Assembly: GCA_030529235.1 (NCBI GenBank)
Contig: JAUMXF010000001.1
Location: 8,809 to 62,082, forward strand
DNA: 53,274 nt
Source: Pseudomonadota bacterium
GTDB taxonomy: Bacteria; Desulfobacterota; Desulfovibrionia; Desulfovibrionales; Desulfomicrobiaceae
Direction: 5' to 3'
The notes beneath the pieces are model-generated. The model did not search any database. It was not told where the DNA came from and saw only the letters and a list, made by a program, of their open reading frames with translations. This document shows, piece after piece, positions 18,897 through 29,305 of this stretch; within the stretch, counting starts at the first letter, position 1; each line of letters begins with the position of its first letter. Made by a program: the position numbers and the translations under genes.

Positions 18897-19661
18897 ATGC
18901 GCATTGTCTGGGATAAGGAAGTAAGAGCAGAGCTTATTGTTTTATCCTCTGCGGACCGGGAAGAACATGCCTGGGCGCATGGACGGGTGACGAGTTTTTC
19001 TTTTTTGCGGATTGGTGACGTCATAGCTTATGAAAATTGTGTGTTGCAGCTTGTTCGGAAAGATCTTTTTTGCGGAGAAGATGGATTATTCCATGTCGGC
19101 TGGAACTGCCGTGTTCTGGAAGGAAATCCTGTCCGGGAAGAGAGGGATTGCTTTCGTGAGCACAGAGGATTGTCTCTGGCCTGGATTACTTTGAGCGATA
19201 AAGGAGCCAGGGGGGAACGTAAGGACGTAAGCGGCCCGGCCATCAGGGAGATCATTTCCGGGGCTATGGAGATTTGCCTGAGCAGAGGAATGATTATTCC
19301 CGATGAACCGGACATTTTCAAACATATCTTGACGGATTTTTGTCTGTTTCAAGGGTTTGATCTGGTGATCACCACGGGCGGAACAGGTGTGGGGCCTCGG
19401 GACATCACTCCTGACGTGACATGCATGCTGCTGGACAAGCGTCTGCCGGGTTTTGAACAGGCCATGATGGCAGCCGCTCTGAAAAAAACTCCTCATGGGG
19501 TCATTTCCAGAGCCGTTGCAGGGACAATGGGCCTGTCTCTGGTCATCAATCTTCCTGGAAGTCTGAAAGCTGTCCGGGAAAATCTGCTTTCTGTGCTTCC
19601 AGCCATCAGACATACGATAGAAAAACTTCAGGGAGACCAAAAAGATTGTGGCATATTCTGA
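18897..19661 (+). CDS. MogA/MoaB-family molybdenum cofactor protein with N-terminal extension
   Basis: 254 residues. The C-terminal 160 residues are a molybdopterin-adenylyltransferase-like domain: WITLSDKGARGERKDVSGPA, the substrate loop TTGGTGVGPRDITPD, RAVAGTMG and LVINLPGSLKAV. The N-terminal 90 residues (with RIGDVIAYENCVLQLVRKDL) are not part of MogA and could be a reduced MOSC-like barrel; this is uncertain. ATG at 18897 follows AAGGAAG; a GTG six codons earlier overlaps that site. It starts the long plus-strand group and overlaps the histidine kinase by 14 bases. Anaerobes of this kind need molybdopterin for formate dehydrogenases and similar enzymes. Confidence 0.82.
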   Translation: MRIVWDKEVRAELIVLSSADREEHAWAHGRVTSFSFLRIGDVIAYENCVLQLVRKDLFCGEDGLFHVGWNCRVLEGNPVREERDCFREHRGLSLAWITLSDKGARGERKDVSGPAIREIISGAMEICLSRGMIIPDEPDIFKHILTDFCLFQGFDLVITTGGTGVGPRDITPDVTCMLLDKRLPGFEQAMMAAALKKTPHGVISRAVAGTMGLSLVINLPGSLKAVRENLLSVLPAIRHTIEKLQGDQKDCGIF

Positions 19662-21294
19662 ATTGAAGTTTTCTCCTGAGTTCAAAGTTTTTTTCTCAAG
19701 AGTTTCCATGGTTCGCTTGGGGATCATGATGCTCCTTTTCGGATTATTTATTCTGGAGACATTCAATTTTTTCAATAGGGGAATGCAATTTGAACTCTAT
19801 AGAGATATTCAATGTATTTATTTTTTTGTAATTGGATTTTCTTTTGTAATATTTCATATATTTTATGTTCATAAATTATATTATTCTATTTATTTTTTTA
19901 TATTTCAATTTATCACAGATTTATTTCTGATAACATGGTGGGTTATACTGACAGGTGGGGTTTTTAGCGGTTTTTATTTTTTGTATATAGTTCTTATATT
20001 ATTTTATGGAAGAATAATCGGTTTCAAAGAATCTTTAATTTCTTCATTTTTAATATGTTTTGTTATTTTTTTAGTATCATGTATTCAGTTTTATTATCCA
20101 TATTTATGGGGTCAGAATAGAATAAATGGTTCAAGTATAGCTTATAATTATGTTTTATTGAATATCGCACTTTTTCTTGTTCTTATTCTTGTTAAGATGA
20201 GCAGATATGAAGAAGGAAGGTTGACTCATAAAATTATTGAAAAAGAAAACGCACTTTATAATGCGGAAAAGTTAAAACTCCGTGTTTTTGATTGGATTGA
20301 ATCAGGTTTGATGGTCGTCAATATGCAGGGTAGAATTACGACCATCAATCAACGTGCTTTGGAATGGATACCCGGAGAAAGCCGTAACAGTGTTCTTGGA
20401 ATGTCCTTTACTGATTTTTATCCGGAATTTGCTTCATTCTGGAATGAGCGGCAGGTGGTTTCCGTTTACAGGAAAATGGTATGGAGTGAAAAAAGAGATG
20501 TTGTTTTTGGCTTCAAGATGACGGAACTCCCCGAAGATCAAGGCTGGATGTTTCTTTTTTCGGATATAACCGAAGTACAGCGGTTGGAAAAACAGCTCAG
20601 AGAAATGGAGAAAATGGCTACGGTAGGGGAACTGGCCGCCGGACTCGCCCATGAGATGAAAAATCCATTGGCCGGGATCAAGGCCAGTCTCCAGCTTCTT
20701 CTTTCCGATGGCATGGATTCGGAATTCTTTGAACGCCTTTCCAATGTCATTATCAGGGATGTGGACAGATTGGATGTACTACTCAAGGAATTTCTGGTTT
20801 TCGCCCACCCCAGAAAGGCTTCTCCCATAGCTCTCGATTTGCGGGAAGAAACGGCTCATATTCTTATGCCTTTGAAACTTCGTTATCCGCAGGTACAGTT
20901 TATCGTAGAGGTAGGTACGGAACTTTTTCATTTTGACAGAAATCAGTTGCATCAGATCCTGGTCAATATCCTGATCAATGCCTGTCAGGCTCTGGATGGA
21001 AGGGAGAATCCGAAAATCCGCATTTTTGAAATCTGGGAACAGGGAGAACGAGGGTTGGCCATAGAGGATAATGGCCCGGGAATACCGCCGGAAATCATGG
21101 AAAAATGTTTTGTTCCGTTTATTACCTCCAAACCGGTGGGCTCGGGTCTTGGGCTGTCCATAGCCCAGCGTCTGGCGGCACAGAATAACGCCCGCATTGA
21201 TCTTACTACTTCCAAAGAAGGCACACGATTCACTCTCGTTCTAGAAGATGTTCCCGCGCGGAAAGACATTCCAGATTCCCGGGAAACAACATGA
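19648..21294 (+). CDS. Membrane-bound sensor histidine kinase (PAS-HisKA-HATPase)
   Basis: 548 residues. Residues about 18-190 form roughly six membrane helices rich in Phe, Ile and Tyr. A PAS domain spans about 214-315 (LMVVNMQGRITTINQRALEW). The phosphoacceptor is His335 in GLAHEMKNPLAGIKAS, and the ATPase has NILINACQAL, IEDNGPGIP and GSGLGLSIAQRLA. Architecture is NtrB/PilS-like. The start is GTG at 19648, inside the mogA-like gene; ATG at 19708 is an alternative. The last four bases overlap the next gene (ATGA). No response regulator is adjacent. The membrane half is extremely AT-rich (19801-20280 about 23% G+C by hand count) compared with the kinase half. Confidence 0.9.
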   Translation: MAYSELKFSPEFKVFFSRVSMVRLGIMMLLFGLFILETFNFFNRGMQFELYRDIQCIYFFVIGFSFVIFHIFYVHKLYYSIYFFIFQFITDLFLITWWVILTGGVFSGFYFLYIVLILFYGRIIGFKESLISSFLICFVIFLVSCIQFYYPYLWGQNRINGSSIAYNYVLLNIALFLVLILVKMSRYEEGRLTHKIIEKENALYNAEKLKLRVFDWIESGLMVVNMQGRITTINQRALEWIPGESRNSVLGMSFTDFYPEFASFWNERQVVSVYRKMVWSEKRDVVFGFKMTELPEDQGWMFLFSDITEVQRLEKQLREMEKMATVGELAAGLAHEMKNPLAGIKASLQLLLSDGMDSEFFERLSNVIIRDVDRLDVLLKEFLVFAHPRKASPIALDLREETAHILMPLKLRYPQVQFIVEVGTELFHFDRNQLHQILVNILINACQALDGRENPKIRIFEIWEQGERGLAIEDNGPGIPPEIMEKCFVPFITSKPVGSGLGLSIAQRLAAQNNARIDLTTSKEGTRFTLVLEDVPARKDIPDSRETT

Positions 21295-24200
21295 AAAAAT
21301 TTATCGCCGATTTACATGTTCATTCCAGGTTTTCGCGGGCCACGAGCAAAAATCTGACTCCCCGGAATCTGGCGGCCTGGGCTTCGGTAAAGGGAATTCA
21401 GCTTCTGGCCACCGGAGATTTTACCCATCCAGGCTGGCTCGAGATGATCTCTGATCAGCTGGAGTCCGTGGAAAACGGATTTTTCCGGCTTAAAGATCAA
21501 AGCGGCCTGGATCAGGAATTACCATGGTTTTCCGGCACTGCTGGAACGGAGGATATCCGTTTCGTTCTGTGTACGGAAATCAGTTCCATCTACAAAAAAG
21601 GGGGAAAAGTCCGGAAGATACACAATCTGGTGTTCATGCCGGGACTGGAAGCGGTACAAAAATTCAATATTCGTCTGGAACAGGTGGGGAATCTGGCTTC
21701 AGACGGAAGGCCCATTCTGGGTCTTCCCGCCCGGGATCTGCTGGAAATGGTGCTGGAAACCGATCCTCTGGCTTTTCTTGTTCCCGCGCATATCTGGACT
21801 CCGTGGTTTTCTCTTTTTGGCTCCAAATCCGGATTCAACCGTCTGGAAGATTGCTTCGAGGATTTGAGCTCCGAGATATTCGCTCTGGAAACAGGGCTGT
21901 CTTCGGATCCGGAAATGAATCAGTTATGGAGCGCTCTGGACCGGTATACGCTCATTTCCAATTCCGACGCCCATTCCGGCGAGAAGCTCGGCCGGGAGGC
22001 GAATCTTCTGTCCGGAGAAATGTCTTTTCCGGCCCTGCGTGCCGCATTGCGCAGGGATTCAGGTCCGGCCCGTTTCGAGGGCACCCTTGAATTCTACCCG
22101 GAGGAAGGCAAATACCATCTGGATGGGCATCGAAAATGCGGCATTGTTTTGGAACCGGCCGAAACAGCACGGCTTAAGGGTATCTGCCCTGTCTGCGGCA
22201 AGGAACTGACCATCGGCGTATTGAACCGGGTCTTTGAACTGGCCGACCGCGAAACTCCCGCTCTTTCCGCCGCCCAGAAGTTTTCTTCTCTGGTTCCGTT
22301 GACCGAAGTATTGTCCGAGATTCTCGGTTCAGGGCCCGGAACCAAAAAAGTAATGGGTATGTATAGCCAGCTGCTTCGGGACTTCGGCTCGGAGCTCGAT
22401 ATTTTGCGGCGGGCTCCTGTGGAAGACCTGAAAAAGTCATCCGCGCTTCTGGCCGAGGCCGTGGACAGAATGCGCAAGGGACAGGTGCGCAGACATTCCG
22501 GATATGACGGCGAATATGGCCGGATATCCATGTTTACGCCCAGAGAATTGCTGGAGTTCAGGCATGGCCGTACTTTTTCCCTGGGCGGTGAAGCGGAGAA
22601 GGACGAGGAAATCGGCCAGAAATGGAGAAAACCGGTTTCCACTGTTCAGGACAGGGATTTGGCCGAGGATTTTTCCCCCAACGAGATGCAGGTTTCAGCC
22701 ATGGTGGCCGGGCCGGGTCCTGTTCTGGTGCTGGCCGGGCCGGGTACGGGCAAGACCCAGACTCTGATGGGACGGATCCGGCGTCTGGAAGAACGGGGAG
22801 CGGATTTTGGGCGCATGCTGGTTGTGACATTCACACGCAAGGCCGCCCGCGAACTGAAGGAACGCTTGGAAAAGACCTGCCGGAAATCTCTGCCCCGGAC
22901 AGATACGCTGCATGCGTTGGCGCTGGAATACTGGACGGAAGTTCTGGGCGAGTCCCCCACTCTTCTTTCAGAGGAAAGCAGCCGCAAACTTTTCGCCGCG
23001 GCCAATCCCGGCTTGCAGGGCAAAACCCTGAAAACGGCCTGGAACGAACTTTCTCTGGCCAGGGAAAGCGGACGGCGCATCCCCAATGAATATGCTAGGC
23101 GGTATCTGGAGCAGAAAACCCGCTTTCATCTTGTGGACTACACGGATTTGCTGGAATTCTGGATGGAAAAGGTGAAATCCGGCAGCTACGGGCAGCGTTT
23201 CGACCATGTACTGGTGGATGAGGTGCAGGATCTTTCCCTGCTGCAGCTGAATCTTGTGATGGGGCTTGCGGGGGAAGGAGGAACAGGGTTTTTTGCCATC
23301 GGTGATCCCAATCAGTCCATTTACGGCTTCCGCGGGGCTGTCCGGGGCTTGGAAGAGCGGATCAGGCAGTCATGGCCTGATCTGAAGCGCATCCGGCTGA
23401 GCAGAAATTACCGGTCGGCACAGGATATTCTGGATTTGAGCTCGGCGCTTCTGCCTGAACGGCAGACTCTTGTGGCGTCGAAAAATCTCACGGCTTCCAT
23501 TTCTCTTTTCGAGGCAAAAAGTGCCGAGCAAGAGGCCGACTGGATCGCCGCGAGGATACGCGATCTGCTCGGCGGAACGGGCCATTGGCAGGCGGACCGG
23601 AATACGCGGGATACCATCGGCCCCGGAGATATCGCCGTACTGGTCCGTTTGAAGGCTCTGACCGCTCCCATTGCCAGAAGGCTGCACGCCGCCGGAATAC
23701 CGGTCAGCGTACCGGAGGATGAGCCTTTTTTCGCGGATTCCAGAGTGGCCCTTCTTTTATCCATGGCCGGCCGGATGCTGGGTCTGCCCGACACCGCTTC
23801 GGACGCACCCGAGTGCCCGGAAGAGATCATAAAAAAGGGTCCCCTGGCCCTGGCCGCGCATCTTTCCGAAACCCCTCCCTTCGATGGGTTGTTCTGGAAA
23901 AATTCGGCCTTTCTCGGTCTGGTCAAAGCCTTTCAGACTTACGGCGGCTGGCAGGGAGTGATGAACATGACGCAACTGGAAACGGAACTGTGCGCCATCC
24001 GCGCCAGAGCCCAGAAGGTGCAGATCATGACGTTGCACGGATCCAAGGGCCTGGAGTTCGATACGGTTTTTCTGCCCTGCCTGGAAGAAGGCATCGTACC
24101 CTTTGCAGGCATGGACATGCTGCTGGGCAAACCCGCGGCGGAGACCCTTCCGGATATGGATGAAGAACGCAGGCTCTTTTATGTGGGTCTGACCAGAGCC

Positions 24201-24365
24201 AAAACCGGAATTTTCATGAGCCACTGCTCCAGCCGGAAGCTCTATGGCAAAACCCGAACGTCTTTTCTGTCTTCCTTCGTGCGCGGACTGCCGCAGGACA
24301 TGATCCGGAAAAGCGCGCTGAAACAGCATGTCCGCCGCGACGAGCGGCAGCTCTCCCTGTTCTGA
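21291..24365 (+). CDS. Endonuclease Q-like PHP domain fused to UvrD/Rep-type helicase
   Basis: 1024 residues. Residues 1-420 resemble endonuclease Q, which nicks DNA 5' of deaminated bases and abasic sites: PHP metal motif DLHVHSRFS (7-15), TGDFTHPGW (41-49), CTEIS, PAHIWTPWFSLFG, SNSDAHSGEKLGREANLL, and a zinc-finger region from HRKCG to CPVCGKELTIGVLNRV. Residues about 465-1010 are an SF1A helicase: Walker A GPGTGKT (483-489), DEVQD (643-647), GDPNQSIYGFRG, LSRNYRS, MTLHGSKGLEF and EERRLFYVGLTRAK. The last five residues, QLSLF (1020-1024), match the bacterial sliding-clamp-binding consensus. ATG overlaps the kinase stop; its own TGA overlaps cbiR. A role in repair of deaminated DNA, nicking then unwinding, is inference. 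Confidence 0.85.
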   Translation: MKKFIADLHVHSRFSRATSKNLTPRNLAAWASVKGIQLLATGDFTHPGWLEMISDQLESVENGFFRLKDQSGLDQELPWFSGTAGTEDIRFVLCTEISSIYKKGGKVRKIHNLVFMPGLEAVQKFNIRLEQVGNLASDGRPILGLPARDLLEMVLETDPLAFLVPAHIWTPWFSLFGSKSGFNRLEDCFEDLSSEIFALETGLSSDPEMNQLWSALDRYTLISNSDAHSGEKLGREANLLSGEMSFPALRAALRRDSGPARFEGTLEFYPEEGKYHLDGHRKCGIVLEPAETARLKGICPVCGKELTIGVLNRVFELADRETPALSAAQKFSSLVPLTEVLSEILGSGPGTKKVMGMYSQLLRDFGSELDILRRAPVEDLKKSSALLAEAVDRMRKGQVRRHSGYDGEYGRISMFTPRELLEFRHGRTFSLGGEAEKDEEIGQKWRKPVSTVQDRDLAEDFSPNEMQVSAMVAGPGPVLVLAGPGTGKTQTLMGRIRRLEERGADFGRMLVVTFTRKAARELKERLEKTCRKSLPRTDTLHALALEYWTEVLGESPTLLSEESSRKLFAAANPGLQGKTLKTAWNELSLARESGRRIPNEYARRYLEQKTRFHLVDYTDLLEFWMEKVKSGSYGQRFDHVLVDEVQDLSLLQLNLVMGLAGEGGTGFFAIGDPNQSIYGFRGAVRGLEERIRQSWPDLKRIRLSRNYRSAQDILDLSSALLPERQTLVASKNLTASISLFEAKSAEQEADWIAARIRDLLGGTGHWQADRNTRDTIGPGDIAVLVRLKALTAPIARRLHAAGIPVSVPEDEPFFADSRVALLLSMAGRMLGLPDTASDAPECPEEIIKKGPLALAAHLSETPPFDGLFWKNSAFLGLVKAFQTYGGWQGVMNMTQLETELCAIRARAQKVQIMTLHGSKGLEFDTVFLPCLEEGIVPFAGMDMLLGKPAAETLPDMDEERRLFYVGLTRAKTGIFMSHCSSRKLYGKTRTSFLSSFVRGLPQDMIRKSALKQHVRRDERQLSLF

Positions 24366-25087
24366 TGCGCTGGAAACTGGCCGCTCCATCCTGCGTGATT
24401 CCCGACCGTGTGGGCGCCAATTGTCACGCTCTCGCGGGCCTGGTGGATGAAGTCGCTCTCATGCTGCTGGAAACGCGCTCCTGCCTGGACTATGGCGAAG
24501 CCGACCTGCCTTCGGATCTGCCGGAGCTTGGTCTTTCCTTTCATGCCCATCTGCCTCTGGATCTGCCCTGGAGTTTCGGGGCGGAGAGTGTGGCGCGGGC
24601 TCTGGCCGGTCTTGAAGAGAAAATTTCTTTCCTCCGGCCGGAGGCATATGTGCTTCATCCGCCCCTTCCCGGAGAATTGTCCCGGTTACTGGAAACATAT
24701 CCCGCCTCAGGCTCGCTTCTTTGTCTGGAAAATGTCCGGCATGGCGATCTGTGGGACATCTGGGATGAGATAGCGGCTCTGGACCTGGGCGTCTGCCTGG
24801 ATCTGGGGCATCTCTTCAGCTACGGTCAGGAGCGGATTCTCGATCTGCCCGGATTTTTCGGCCGGGTGCGGATGCTGCATGTGTACGGAGGCGAATCCCC
24901 AAAAGGGCATGCGGGTCTGTCCGAGTTTAAGGACCCGCATTTGCTGCACGACATTTTTTCCCGTCTGGAAAGGGATGTGACCATGGTGGTGGAAGTTTTC
25001 CATCTGGGAGAGCTGCGCCGCTCGCTGGCCCTGCTGCGCGGGTGGCTGGCCCGGTGGGGCATGCCGGTTGGAGAGGGGCATGATTGA
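24365..25087 (+). CDS. cbiR: Probable cobamide-remodelling phosphodiesterase CbiR
   Basis: 240 residues, AP-endonuclease-2/sugar-isomerase TIM barrel. Likely metal-binding residues are visible: SFHAHLPLD, YVLHPPLPG, CLENVRHGD, VCLDLGHLFSYG, MLHVYGGESPKGH and VVEVFHLGE. CbiR (described in Akkermansia) is a member of this superfamily that hydrolyses the nucleotide loop of cobamides so the corrinoid can be rebuilt with another lower ligand. The assignment here rests on the fold, the size and the 8-base overlap with cobU, which rephosphorylates the released cobinamide. TGATG coupling with the helicase gene upstream. It could instead be an unrelated isomerase-fold protein. Confidence 0.7.
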   Translation: MRWKLAAPSCVIPDRVGANCHALAGLVDEVALMLLETRSCLDYGEADLPSDLPELGLSFHAHLPLDLPWSFGAESVARALAGLEEKISFLRPEAYVLHPPLPGELSRLLETYPASGSLLCLENVRHGDLWDIWDEIAALDLGVCLDLGHLFSYGQERILDLPGFFGRVRMLHVYGGESPKGHAGLSEFKDPHLLHDIFSRLERDVTMVVEVFHLGELRRSLALLRGWLARWGMPVGEGHD

Positions 25088-25595
25088 TCTGGTTCTTGGC
25101 GGCAATAAATCCGGAAAATCCGACTTCGCCCTCGAGCTTCTGGCCTCGTCTCCAAAGCCCTGGACTTTCGTGGCCACGGGCAAGGCCAGAGATCTGGCCT
25201 TCCGGGAGCAGATCCGCATCCACCGGCAGGAGCGGGATCCGGAGATCACGGTGGTGGAGGTGGACACGGAGCTTCCGGAAACGCTGGCTTCATTGTCCGG
25301 GCGGGAAGGCGGCATTCTGGTGGACAGTCTGGATTTCTGGCTTTTTTCCGTGAATTGCGCCTTTACGGATGCGGCGGCCCGTGGCGCGGCGCGGAGCAAA
25401 CTGATGTCGGAACTGACGGCCTGGAGGGGCGGGCGGCTTATTCTCGTCTCCACGGAAATGGGCTTGGGGCCGCTTGCCTTTGACGGGGAAACACGGGCTT
25501 TTGTCCGCGATCTGGGCGGGCTCAACCGCGAAATTGCCAGGGTGGGAACAAGCGTGTATCTCTTGGTTGCGGGGCTGCCCCAGAAACTCAAGTGA
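25080..25595 (+). CDS. cobU: Adenosylcobinamide kinase / guanylyltransferase
   Basis: Phosphorylates adenosylcobinamide and transfers GMP to it, in assembly and salvage of B12-type cofactors. 171 residues. P-loop GGNKSGKS is close to the N-terminus, followed by TFVATGKA, HRQER (a variant of the family HRxxR site where GMP is attached), GGILVDSLDFWL in place of the usual DCLT-like segment, and VSTEMGLGPLA near EVGxGxVP of other members. The ATG at 25080 lies within cbiR and follows GAGAGGGGC; an upstream TTG is rejected. Confidence 0.85.
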   Translation: MIDLVLGGNKSGKSDFALELLASSPKPWTFVATGKARDLAFREQIRIHRQERDPEITVVEVDTELPETLASLSGREGGILVDSLDFWLFSVNCAFTDAAARGAARSKLMSELTAWRGGRLILVSTEMGLGPLAFDGETRAFVRDLGGLNREIARVGTSVYLLVAGLPQKLK

Positions 25596-25602
25596 GAGAG
25601 CC

Positions 25603-26628
25603 ATGGCGTATTTTCGGAAGCTCGGTCCAAAACTGGAAAAACTTCTGGAGCTGTTCAGGAAACAGCAACGGTGGCTGATTCTCATCAACGCCGATCCGGA
25701 CGCTCTGGCCTCGGCCATGGCTTTGAAACGCATTCTGGCCGGACGGGTGGAGCTGGCGACCATCGCCTATGTGAACGAGATTTCCCGGCCCGACAATCTG
25801 GCCATGATCCGCTATCTGCGTATCCCCATCACCCGGCTGACACCGCCGCTCATCGCACAGTACGACCATTTCGCTCTGGTGGATTCCCAGCCGCACCATC
25901 ACCCGGACTTCGCGGGACTGCATTTTTCCGTGGTCATCGACCATCATCCCAAGGTGGCGGGCATGCCCGTGGACGCCGATTTCGTGGAAATTCTGGCGGA
26001 ATACGGCTCCAACTCGACCATCATGACGGAGTATCTCTACAATCTGGGGCTCCGGCCCGGAAAGCTTCTGGCCACGGCTCTTCTCTACGGCATCAAGACG
26101 GACACCCAGAGTTTCGAGCGGGAATTCCACGACAACGACATGAAGGCCTTCCGCTATTTATCGAAATTCTACAACAAGCCGCTGCTGCACAAGATCATCC
26201 GCTCGGAATTCCGTCTGGAATGGCTCAAGTATTTCACCCAGGCTTTCCGCAAAATGCGGATAGTCGGCAAAACCATCACTATTTTCATGGGGAAGGTGGA
26301 TTCCTCGGACATTCTGGTCATTCTGGCCGATTTTTTCCTGCGGGTGCACGGCCTGTCTTCCACCATGATAAGCGGTATCCACGAGGACAAGCTGGTCGTG
26401 GTCTTCCGGGGAGACGGGCTGCGCCGGGACATGGGCAAGTTCGCCAAGCGCCTGTTCGGGGACGTGGGTTCCGCCGGAGGGCACAAATCCATGGCCCGGG
26501 CCGAAATTCCCATAGAGAAGCTGGAAGGGTTGTCCGCCAGCCAGTTTGTATGGGACCGGCTGCATGCCGGCAGCGAATCCGGGAAAAAGAAGGACCAGGA
26601 AAGCGGCCAGCCCGGGCTGAAAGCATAG
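25603..26628 (+). CDS. DHH-family phosphoesterase (NrnA-like)
   Basis: 341 residues. DHH-family motifs: LINADPDALASAMAL (about 25-39; Asn replaces the usual His), DSQPHHHPD (about 90-98), VIDHHPK (the DHH signature) and GIKTDTQSF, then a DHHA1 domain with GSAGGHKSMARAEIP. These point to a Mn-dependent phosphoesterase of the NrnA/pAp-phosphatase group acting on short oligonucleotides or 3'-phosphoadenosine 5'-phosphate. pAp removal would be useful where sulfate is activated through PAPS, but the substrate is not determined. ATG at 25603, seven bases after cobU, with GTGAGAGAG in front. The frame is open upstream within cobU but has no start signal. Confidence 0.85.
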   Translation: MAYFRKLGPKLEKLLELFRKQQRWLILINADPDALASAMALKRILAGRVELATIAYVNEISRPDNLAMIRYLRIPITRLTPPLIAQYDHFALVDSQPHHHPDFAGLHFSVVIDHHPKVAGMPVDADFVEILAEYGSNSTIMTEYLYNLGLRPGKLLATALLYGIKTDTQSFEREFHDNDMKAFRYLSKFYNKPLLHKIIRSEFRLEWLKYFTQAFRKMRIVGKTITIFMGKVDSSDILVILADFFLRVHGLSSTMISGIHEDKLVVVFRGDGLRRDMGKFAKRLFGDVGSAGGHKSMARAEIPIEKLEGLSASQFVWDRLHAGSESGKKKDQESGQPGLKA

Positions 26629-26758: not shown

Positions 26759-29305
26759 ATGACGCTTCAGGCGCGGCTCGGGCTGAAAGCCGGGCCTCTT
26801 TTTTTGATTGACGGACACGCCTTCATCTACCGGGGGTTTTACGCCTATCCCGATTTCAAGCGCGCCGACGGATTCCCGACCAGTGCCATGTTCATGGTCT
26901 TCAAGCTGGTTCTGAAGCTGTTGCGGGAAGAGCGCCCCGCTTACCTCGCTTTTGTGGCCGACGGCCGGGGGCCGACCTTCCGGAACAGTCTTTTTCCGGA
27001 CTACAAGGCCAACAGGCCGGGTATGCCCGAGGCGCTGGCCGCCCAGATCGAGCCCCTCAAGGAAGGCTTGCGTCTGCTGGGCGTTCCGGTGGTCGAGGCC
27101 GAAGGAGTGGAGGCCGACGACTGCATCGCCTCCCTGGCCGGGCGGTTCAAGGGGGATCTCAGCGTGGTCATTGTCGGCGCGGACAAGGATCTGCGCCAGT
27201 GTCTGGATACGGATGTGATCATGTGGGATCCGTCCCAGAGCAGGGAAAAGATCGTCACTCTCGATGGCTTCATGGAGGAAACGGGGCTGACCCCGGATCA
27301 GTGGGCCGATTACCAGGCCATGATCGGAGATTCGGCGGACAATATTCCGGGCATCCCCAAGGTCGGCCCCAAAACGGCCATGGGACTTTTGCGCCGCTTC
27401 CCGAACCTTGACCTGTTGCGGGAGAATTTCGACAGGCTCACGGCCAGAGAGCAGACTCTGCTTGGCCCGCACATGGAGACGGTTTTCATGTACCGGGAGC
27501 TGACCGCCCTGCGTACGGACCAGTGCGCGGAGGCGAAGCTGGAAAACCTTGCCGTGAAGCCCGTCGATCAGGTCGGCGCGGCCCGTTTTCTGCACGAATA
27601 TGAATTCCGTTCCTTGTCAGCGGAACTGGAAGCCCTGGTCGGACGATCCAACGCTTCAGCGGACCCGCCTCCTGTGGAAACGCTTCCGGCGGAATGGACG
27701 GCACCGGCCAGGGTTGACCGTCTGGAGAATCTGACCGGCCGGGAAGCGGCCCTTTGCGCTGTGGAGGACGGTTGGCTGCTGGGAACGGACAGGGACGATT
27801 TCATGTTCACGGGCGGCGTGGGCGAGCTGGCCCGGGCTCTGGAAGGAGCTACGCTCTACGTGCCTTCCTACAAGACTCTGCTCGAAGCCGATGTCTTTGA
27901 CGCGGGCCGGTGCGCCGAAATCTTCGATATCGAGCTGGCCGCCTATCTGCTGAGCCCCGAGGAGCGCAATTATTCTCTGGAACGCATCCGCGACGGGCTG
28001 GAGGAAGAGCTTGGCTTGCATCCGGATGGCCTCGGGCAGATGGTTCTGGCCGTAGGCCGGATATTGCGGTCCAGGCTGGCGGCCTCGGAGCTGCTTGCGC
28101 TCATGCGCGATCTGGAGACGCCGCTTACGGATGTGCTGGTCCGGATGCAGCGGCGCGGTGTGCGCATTTCCAGGGAACGGTTCGGGGAATTTCTGGATCA
28201 GGTGCAGGCGGAGCTGGACCGCCTGAGCGCTTCCATTCACGAACTGGCGGGGGAAGAGTTCAACATCCGCTCCAGCCAGCAGCTCGGCGACATCCTGTTT
28301 TCGAGGCTCGGCCTGAGCAGCAGGCAGAAGACTCCCGGAGGTGCCCAGTCCACTTCCAGCGCGGTGCTGGAAAGCCTGGCCGGAAAACACCCCATTGTGG
28401 ATCAGGTGCTGGAATTTCGGATGTACGAAAAACTGCGCTCCACCTATCTGGAGCCCCTGCCCCGGCTGGCCGATGACCGGGACCGCGTGCATACCACCTT
28501 CAACCAGCTGGCCACGGCCACGGGCCGTCTTTCGAGCAGCAATCCCAACCTGCAGAACATTCCCATCCGCGGCGCTCTCGGGCCGAAGATGCGTTCCTGT
28601 TTTGTGGCCTCGCCGGGAAATCTGCTGGTGGCGGCGGACTATTCGCAGATCGAGCTGCGGGTGTTGGCCCACATGTCCGGCGATCCGACCCTGCTGGCGG
28701 CCTTTGCCGAAGGAGACGACATTCATGCGCGCACGGCCAGGCTTTTGTTCGACAAGACCGAAGTCAGCACCGACGAGCGGCGGCGGGCCAAAACCATCAA
28801 TTTCGGGTTGCTGTACGGGATGGGTCCGCAGAAACTGGGGCGGGAACTGGGCATAGGGCTCAAGGAGGCCAAGGAGTTCATCGCCGTGTATTTCGAAAAA
28901 CTGTCCCGCGTCCGGCGGTTTTACGAGGAGATCGAGGAGAGCGCCAAAGCCCTGGGCTATGTGACGACTCTGGCCGGACGGCGGCGCATGCTGCCGGAAA
29001 TTCATTCGCGCAACGCCAATCTGGCGCAGCAGGCCCGGCGTATGGCCATCAACACCGTGGTGCAGGGATCGGCGGCGGACATCATCAAGAAAGCCATGCT
29101 GGAAGTGGACAAAAGCCCGGTTATCGATCAAGCAGGCGGAGTCCTGATTTTACAGGTACATGACGAGCTGCTGCTGGAAGCGCCGGCGGAGACGGCCCGC
29201 CAGGTCGGAGAGGCGGTGGAGGGCCTCATGTCCTCCGTCTATGCCCTGAATGTCCCTCTGGCCGTGGACTGGGGCACGGGCCCGAGCTGGAACGAGGCCC
29301 ACTGA
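26759..29305 (+). CDS. polA: DNA polymerase I
   Basis: 848 residues. The 5' nuclease domain (1-300) has LIDGHAFIYRGFYA, EADDCIA, DSADNIPGIPKVGPKTA. The polymerase domain has motif A VAADYSQIELRVLAH, motif B RRAKTINFGLLYGMG and motif C VHDEL. The middle region (about 315-490) lies where the 3'-5' exonuclease sits, but its first metal motif (DTE in E. coli) is replaced by AVEDGWLLG, and only an Asp in FDIELAAYLL is recognisable; proofreading is probably lost. ATG at 26759 with GGAGG. The 130-base gap before it contains no gene; a separate promoter is possible. Confidence 0.95.
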   Translation: MTLQARLGLKAGPLFLIDGHAFIYRGFYAYPDFKRADGFPTSAMFMVFKLVLKLLREERPAYLAFVADGRGPTFRNSLFPDYKANRPGMPEALAAQIEPLKEGLRLLGVPVVEAEGVEADDCIASLAGRFKGDLSVVIVGADKDLRQCLDTDVIMWDPSQSREKIVTLDGFMEETGLTPDQWADYQAMIGDSADNIPGIPKVGPKTAMGLLRRFPNLDLLRENFDRLTAREQTLLGPHMETVFMYRELTALRTDQCAEAKLENLAVKPVDQVGAARFLHEYEFRSLSAELEALVGRSNASADPPPVETLPAEWTAPARVDRLENLTGREAALCAVEDGWLLGTDRDDFMFTGGVGELARALEGATLYVPSYKTLLEADVFDAGRCAEIFDIELAAYLLSPEERNYSLERIRDGLEEELGLHPDGLGQMVLAVGRILRSRLAASELLALMRDLETPLTDVLVRMQRRGVRISRERFGEFLDQVQAELDRLSASIHELAGEEFNIRSSQQLGDILFSRLGLSSRQKTPGGAQSTSSAVLESLAGKHPIVDQVLEFRMYEKLRSTYLEPLPRLADDRDRVHTTFNQLATATGRLSSSNPNLQNIPIRGALGPKMRSCFVASPGNLLVAADYSQIELRVLAHMSGDPTLLAAFAEGDDIHARTARLLFDKTEVSTDERRRAKTINFGLLYGMGPQKLGRELGIGLKEAKEFIAVYFEKLSRVRRFYEEIEESAKALGYVTTLAGRRRMLPEIHSRNANLAQQARRMAINTVVQGSAADIIKKAMLEVDKSPVIDQAGGVLILQVHDELLLEAPAETARQVGEAVEGLMSSVYALNVPLAVDWGTGPSWNEAH

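Follow-up and report, generated by a model that had tools for sequence, protein, structure and literature searches.

The window analysed here, 53,274 nucleotides of contig JAUMXF010000001.1, contains a gene encoding an endonuclease Q (EndoQ) domain and a UvrD/Rep-like helicase in a single polypeptide chain, which terminates in QLSLF, a candidate motif for binding the beta sliding clamp. From this combination we infer, with a probability of roughly 0.6, a glycosylase-independent excision repair of deaminated bases by a clamp-tethered enzyme that nicks and unwinds. The fusion with a helicase, the forms in which the two halves are encoded by adjacent genes, and the almost complete lack of UDG and EndoV among the Desulfovibrionales, the order to which the organism belongs, all appear to be undescribed.

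Domain structure of the fusion protein

The gene is located on contig G000:C70 of a 2.3 Mb genome that is 99% complete. The open reading frame, its coordinates and the C-terminal QLSLF were exactly as claimed in the preliminary description of this DNA (Table 1).

Table 1. Coordinates of the fusion gene, of the segments of its product and of the neighbouring genes (positions refer to the window)
Feature	Residues	Position	Strand	Remarks
Sensor histidine kinase gene		19648..21294	+	directly upstream; overlaps the ATG of the fusion gene by 4 nt (ATGA)
Whole EndoQ-UvrD fusion gene	1-1024	21291..24365	+	1024 aa, ends ...RDERQLSLF, stop
EndoQ domain (PHP nuclease and zinc domain)	1-426	21291..22568	+	phmmer, TIGR00375, VIA, invariant ligands
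Zinc-binding residues	H280, C283, C299, C302	22128..22196	+	HCCC vs archaeal CCCC
Disordered linker	427-460	22569..22670	+	AlphaFold pLDDT < 50
UvrD/Rep-like SF1A helicase	461-1011	22671..24323	+	PF00580/PF13361, Foldseek, VIA, invariant motifs
Disordered C-terminal tail	1012-1024	24324..24362	+	pLDDT < 50
QLSLF, candidate beta-clamp-binding motif	1020-1024	24348..24362	+	extreme C-terminus; consensus QL[S/D]LF / QxxLF
CbiR		24365-25087	+	cobamide gene; its ATG overlaps the TGA of the fusion gene (TGATG)
CobU		25068-25595	+	cobamide gene following CbiR
DHH-family phosphoesterase		25474-26628	+	start uncertain; downstream of the fusion in most order genomes sampled
DNA polymerase I		26759-29305	+	downstream of the fusion in most order genomes sampled

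The N-terminal half is an EndoQ. In a phmmer search of the PDB residues 6-417 aligned with residues 5-383 of Pyrococcus furiosus EndoQ (PfuEndoQ, E 2.3e-49), and the EndoQ entries (5zb8, 7k30/31) were the sole PDB family matched by this half. The NCBIfam model TIGR00375, which carries no name and which we take to be the EndoQ family, matched at 7e-52, with a score under its equivalog cut-off of 326.6 bits. When the AlphaFold model of the whole protein (mean pLDDT 82.7) was compared with 5zb8_B, VIA gave a Z score of 47.3 and an rmsd of 2.3 Å over 385 residues. Profile search, phmmer and fold thus agreed with the assignment of residues 1-420 to EndoQ made in the preliminary description, and no other PHP family fitted better.

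In the phmmer alignment H8, H10, D42, E76, H84, H139, D193 and H195 of PfuEndoQ correspond to H9, H11, D43, E96, H111, H167, D226 and H228 of the fusion protein; in the base pocket, G169 and S171 are matched by G202 and S204. PfuEndoQ mutants in E76, H84 or H139 have no activity, and H139, G169 and S171 serve to keep out T and A (PMC8307549). Every catalytic ligand was present in the alignment, and the metal, base-pocket and zinc ligands of the domain were invariant in all 38 aligned fused homologues. The PHP metal motifs and the zinc-finger region noted earlier are both there; the zinc site is, however, of the HCCC rather than the CCCC type, since C283 and the CPxCG element (C299-P-x-C302-G) are kept and the first cysteine is replaced by an invariant histidine, H280. 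N45 of PfuEndoQ is replaced by H46, which was also invariant among the 38 fused homologues.

The C-terminal half is a helicase of the UvrD/Rep type. It matched the Pfam families UvrD-helicase and UvrD_C (PF00580/PF13361), Foldseek placed it with UvrD, Rep and PcrA, and VIA comparison of residues 460-1011 gave Z scores of 40 to Rep and of 37-39 to UvrD and PcrA. Walker A (residues 483-489), DExQD (643-647) and motifs III-VI were recognized, and the Walker A, DExQD and motif III and VI residues were invariant in the 38 fused homologues. The 2B subdomain of PcrA comprises about 170 residues. Motifs IV and V of the fusion protein are separated by a short stretch, which in the model has about 90 residues of 2B-like helices (817-906), and on this comparison of sizes the 2B subdomain appears reduced. 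The earlier wording "complete SF1A helicase" holds for the core motifs and the fold but is slightly too strong in this respect. Since the 2B subdomain of Rep and UvrD has a regulatory role and holds unwinding in check, a small 2B could mean a differently controlled motor. The fusion helicase scored about 200 bits, far under the equivalog cut-offs of PcrA, UvrD and Rep. Besides the fusion helicase, which is thus an additional motor, the genome encodes a separate UvrD/PcrA (C100) and a RecB/AddA-like protein. No QxxLF-type motif was found in the open reading frame of the separate UvrD.

The C-terminal motif and the sliding clamp

Clamp-binding motifs of bacterial proteins follow the consensus QL[S/D]LF or, more generally, QxxLF, and the C-terminus of Bacillus subtilis PolC is exactly QLSLF (PMC12309361). 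The C-termini of 138 distinct EndoQ proteins of the phylum (87 fused and 51 unfused, all with intact C-termini) were surveyed, with 1446 other long open reading frames of the same loci, unfiltered for true genes, as controls. The motif Q[LM]x[LM]F occurred within the last 16 residues in 52 of the 87 fused and 11 of the 51 unfused proteins, and in none of the 1446 controls. With the looser pattern Q..[LMI][FL] the corresponding counts were 64/87, 25/51 and 15/1446. The Fisher p values of this enrichment over the control frames (~1e-78 and 1e-30) are indicative only, the sequences being related. The strict motif was seldom found at internal positions of the fused proteins. QLSLF was almost invariant in the genus of the window and QLxLF was conserved across much of the phylum, in keeping with the conservation among close homologues that the preliminary description required; in several families of the order it has decayed, for example to REKRPRLF.

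The tail carrying the motif is disordered in the AlphaFold model. The DnaN of the organism is divergent: G174, H175, M362 and P363 are kept, and several other pocket residues differ from those of Escherichia coli DnaN. The DnaNs of the order (L065, L208-L237) have an unusual pocket, with substitutions at R152, T172, R176 and S346, and extend at the C-terminus about 10-15 residues past MPxxx, often with YY(T/S)EE. DnaE of the same genome (G000:C115, L238) contains GQLSFMG in its C-terminal third, where QxxLF would be expected, and QLSFM is presumably its clamp motif. We consider it probable, from the position and conservation of the predicted motif, that the fusion protein docks on the clamp through QLSLF. 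Because the motif is degraded in several families and the clamp pocket of the order is unlike that of E. coli, binding is uncertain in some of the species.

Part of this has precedents. A paper of 2015 (PMC4357722) already pointed out that Bacillus and Desulfovibrio have EndoQ homologues, and beta-clamp consensus motifs at the C-terminus of bacterial EndoQs were reported by the same group in 2016 (PMC4858679). Thermococcus kodakarensis EndoQ binds PCNA through its C-terminal motif with a KD of 55 nM, and PCNA stimulates its activity (PMC4858679), in agreement with the cooperation of archaeal EndoQ and PCNA assumed in the preliminary description. Its other statement, that no study of the fused form was known, needs to be divided: the bacterial EndoQ and its C-terminal clamp motif are published, but no mention of the fusion with a helicase was found in the text of the open-access literature searched, and the EndoQ papers cited here name a helicase only as a separate component of the pathway.

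Distribution and gene arrangement

EndoQ was present in 229 of 345 genomes of the phylum (about two thirds), many of the proteins being fused and many unfused. The UDG superfamily (PF03167) was represented in 317 of the same 345 genomes. Outside the order 316 of 329 genomes had UDG and 155 had EndoV, as compared with no EndoV in the 16 order genomes of the phylum sample. In the sample of 61 order genomes a PF03167 match of any strength was detectable in 19 and a clear one (≥ 59 bits) in five; in family f5 of the order PF03167 was found in 0/15 genomes and EndoQ in 15/15. The near-absence of the UDG superfamily and EndoV sets families f5, f4 and f2 apart from the rest of the phylum. The only UDG-superfamily member of the window genome (G000:C164) is divergent, a weak UDG by Pfam with 26.5 bits to PF03167; in the genus of the window the divergent protein is about 225 aa long (L134:1501-2175, minus strand) and scores 26-27 bits.

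The idea that EndoQ replaces UDG throughout the phylum was rejected, because EndoQ was about equally frequent in UDG-less (18/28) and UDG-bearing (211/317) genomes. In the absence of a phylum-wide association the replacement idea is confined to the order, where it rests mainly on one clade. In the Desulfovibrionales the fusion protein may be the main defence against deaminated bases. As a more tentative proposal, for which we would claim somewhat less than even odds, the order could have swapped UDG and EndoV for one clamp-tethered nick-and-unwind enzyme, and the combination of EndoQ with UvrD, whether in one chain or in paired genes of an operon with a clamp tag on each part, could be a widespread bacterial alternative form of excision repair.

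Most EndoQ-bearing genomes of the phylum outside the order also have UDG, hence uracil is not the sole reason to keep EndoQ. This would fit an enzyme that the clamp directs to a different lesion or intermediate (an AP site, an oxidised pyrimidine, a mismatch or an R-loop) and that combines broad nicking with strand excision in the manner of MutH and UvrD. EndoQ also cleaves AP sites and some oxidised pyrimidines (PMC8307549), and the HCCC zinc site and H46 are unlike the archaeal enzyme. However, the residues of the pocket that reads uracil and hypoxanthine (G202, S204 and H167) are kept, and a bacterial member of the family, Bacillus pumilus EndoQ, acts on uracil, hypoxanthine and AP sites (PMC6202378, PMC8438529) with the specificity of the archaeal enzymes (PMC6202378). 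Another principal substrate is therefore unlikely, and a role in the repair of deaminated bases remains the likely one. As a predicted role, the "self-contained deaminated-base repair machine" of the preliminary description is supported by the EndoQ family membership, the intact ligands and the conserved terminal motif.

Both halves were found in one reading frame in 56 of the 61 order genomes; in the remaining five either the locus was partial, carried a frameshift or ran off the end of a contig, or no EndoQ match was recognisable. In one of the 56 (G005, L013) a lone TAA interrupts the gene between its EndoQ and helicase parts, the locus being otherwise intact. Eight loci (L120, L124, L153, L159, L161, L174, L178, L180) have an unfused EndoQ beside a separate UvrD-like gene, mostly within 50 bp and at most at about 200 bp (the L124 pair occupies L124:6362-9640). 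A clamp-type motif (NQLKFF, KQLSLF, KQMKLF, RQMKLF, KQLTLF) forms the C-terminus of seven of the eight helicases, and in several pairs (L124, L178, L180) both proteins carry one. On an EndoQ tree, a quick tree with a long outgroup and an unsure root, the fused state changes 15 times, at least nine of the changes being forced by well-supported branches, and a single fusion event was rejected.

Such frequent interchange (at least 9-15 times), together with the many standalone EndoQs that have no helicase nearby, could mean that the halves act separately, with the terminal motif serving only to bring the UvrD-like motor to the fork, and with the nuclease as a passenger. We regard this as improbable, since the nuclease ligands are invariant in 38 of 38 aligned fused proteins and the split pairs stay adjacent, often with a clamp motif on each. 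Fusion and splitting have recurred while the genes stayed adjacent, which is strong guilt-by-association evidence for a single pathway of nicking and unwinding.

The gene order moaB-like, (histidine kinase), fusion, cbiR, cobU, DHH, polA was conserved in most order genomes outside f5; most f5 genomes and the other classes have a different neighbourhood. Translational coupling links the cobamide-remodelling genes cbiR and cobU (24365-25595) to the repair gene, and most of the order keeps them in this place. PolA readily suggests itself as the enzyme that fills the gap and removes the flap, to which the linkage gives weak support because the cobamide genes intervene.

One scan of genome contigs for homologues outside the phylum returned one fusion, from the same order, and UvrD-only matches. 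No relatives of the fusion were found in 72,556 plasmids, 50,697 phages, a viral-contig scan or PHROGs. A mobile or defence origin was rejected on this ground and because the matches of the helicase half to GajB profiles (212 bits, PADLOC) span the UvrD core only. An anti-phage enzyme that, in the manner of defence proteins pairing a nuclease with a helicase (GajB-type UvrD), destroys foreign DNA that is deaminated or contains uracil or hypoxanthine is accordingly very improbable, even though an antiviral role has been proposed for Bacillus EndoQ in work cited by PMC8307549: the fusion is near-universal in the order with conserved synteny, its clamp motif points to replication, and no GajA partner was seen among the neighbours (cobamide, DHH and PolA genes).

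Proposed mechanism and relation to known systems

In the proposed excision repair the EndoQ domain would flip out uracil or hypoxanthine (probably also xanthine or an abasic site) and nick the strand directly on the 5' side of the lesion; the cut would yield a 3'-OH primer, and the downstream strand would begin with the lesion at its 5' end. The motor, predicted from its family to move 3' to 5', would load at the nick on the undamaged strand, travel away from the primer and peel off the lesion-bearing 5' strand. SF1A helicases have an established 3' to 5' polarity, and the two activities would fit geometrically, because a motor of this polarity displaces exactly the strand that carries the lesion. 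Through QLSLF the protein would attach to the beta clamp, either at the fork or behind it, and a clamp loaded at the 3'-OH would hold the fusion protein and the polymerase together while the polymerase fills in. The repair would be completed by ligase and by a nuclease for flaps or single strands, which could be PolA or perhaps the neighbouring DHH protein. In the Desulfovibrionales this route would replace the mostly missing UDG and EndoV. Taken as one coupled series, these steps are favoured rather than firmly predicted.

EndoQ, which has been described as an archaeal enzyme that occurs in "a few bacteria", is present in about two thirds of the 345 genomes sampled from a single bacterial phylum, and a helicase is often fused to it or encoded beside it. 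Models of the EndoQ pathway call on a separate helicase (PMC4357722, PMC8438529); if the mechanism is true, the fusion supplies their missing unwinding step, and explains how glycosylase-poor sulfate reducers handle the deamination of cytosine and adenine. Archaea and bacteria would then have acquired clamp docking through unrelated motifs, directed at PCNA and at the beta clamp respectively. If, in addition, the replacement of UDG and EndoV is true, a major bacterial lineage repairs deaminated bases without a dedicated glycosylase.

The EndoQs of P. furiosus and T. kodakarensis (5zb8, 7k30) resemble the nuclease half in fold, in catalytic and base-pocket residues and in having a C-terminal clamp-interaction motif. 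The archaeal enzymes end after about 424 residues with a PIP box for PCNA, whereas in the fusion protein a UvrD helicase is inserted before QLSLF; they also have a CCCC zinc site and N45 in place of HCCC and H46. The EndoQs of B. pumilus and B. subtilis belong to the same family, for which a clamp-type C-terminal motif has been reported (PMC4858679), but have no fused helicase in the EndoQ papers cited. UvrD, Rep and PcrA share the core motifs and the fold of the helicase half (VIA Z 37-40), and differ from the fusion protein in their longer motif IV-V region, the 2B of the fusion appearing reduced, and in lacking the N-terminal nuclease and the clamp motif. In AdnAB, AddAB and RecB a UvrD-family motor is likewise covalently joined to a nuclease; theirs is a C-terminal RecB-type nuclease for double-strand breaks, whereas that of the fusion protein is an N-terminal PHP nuclease of the lesion-specific, nicking kind.
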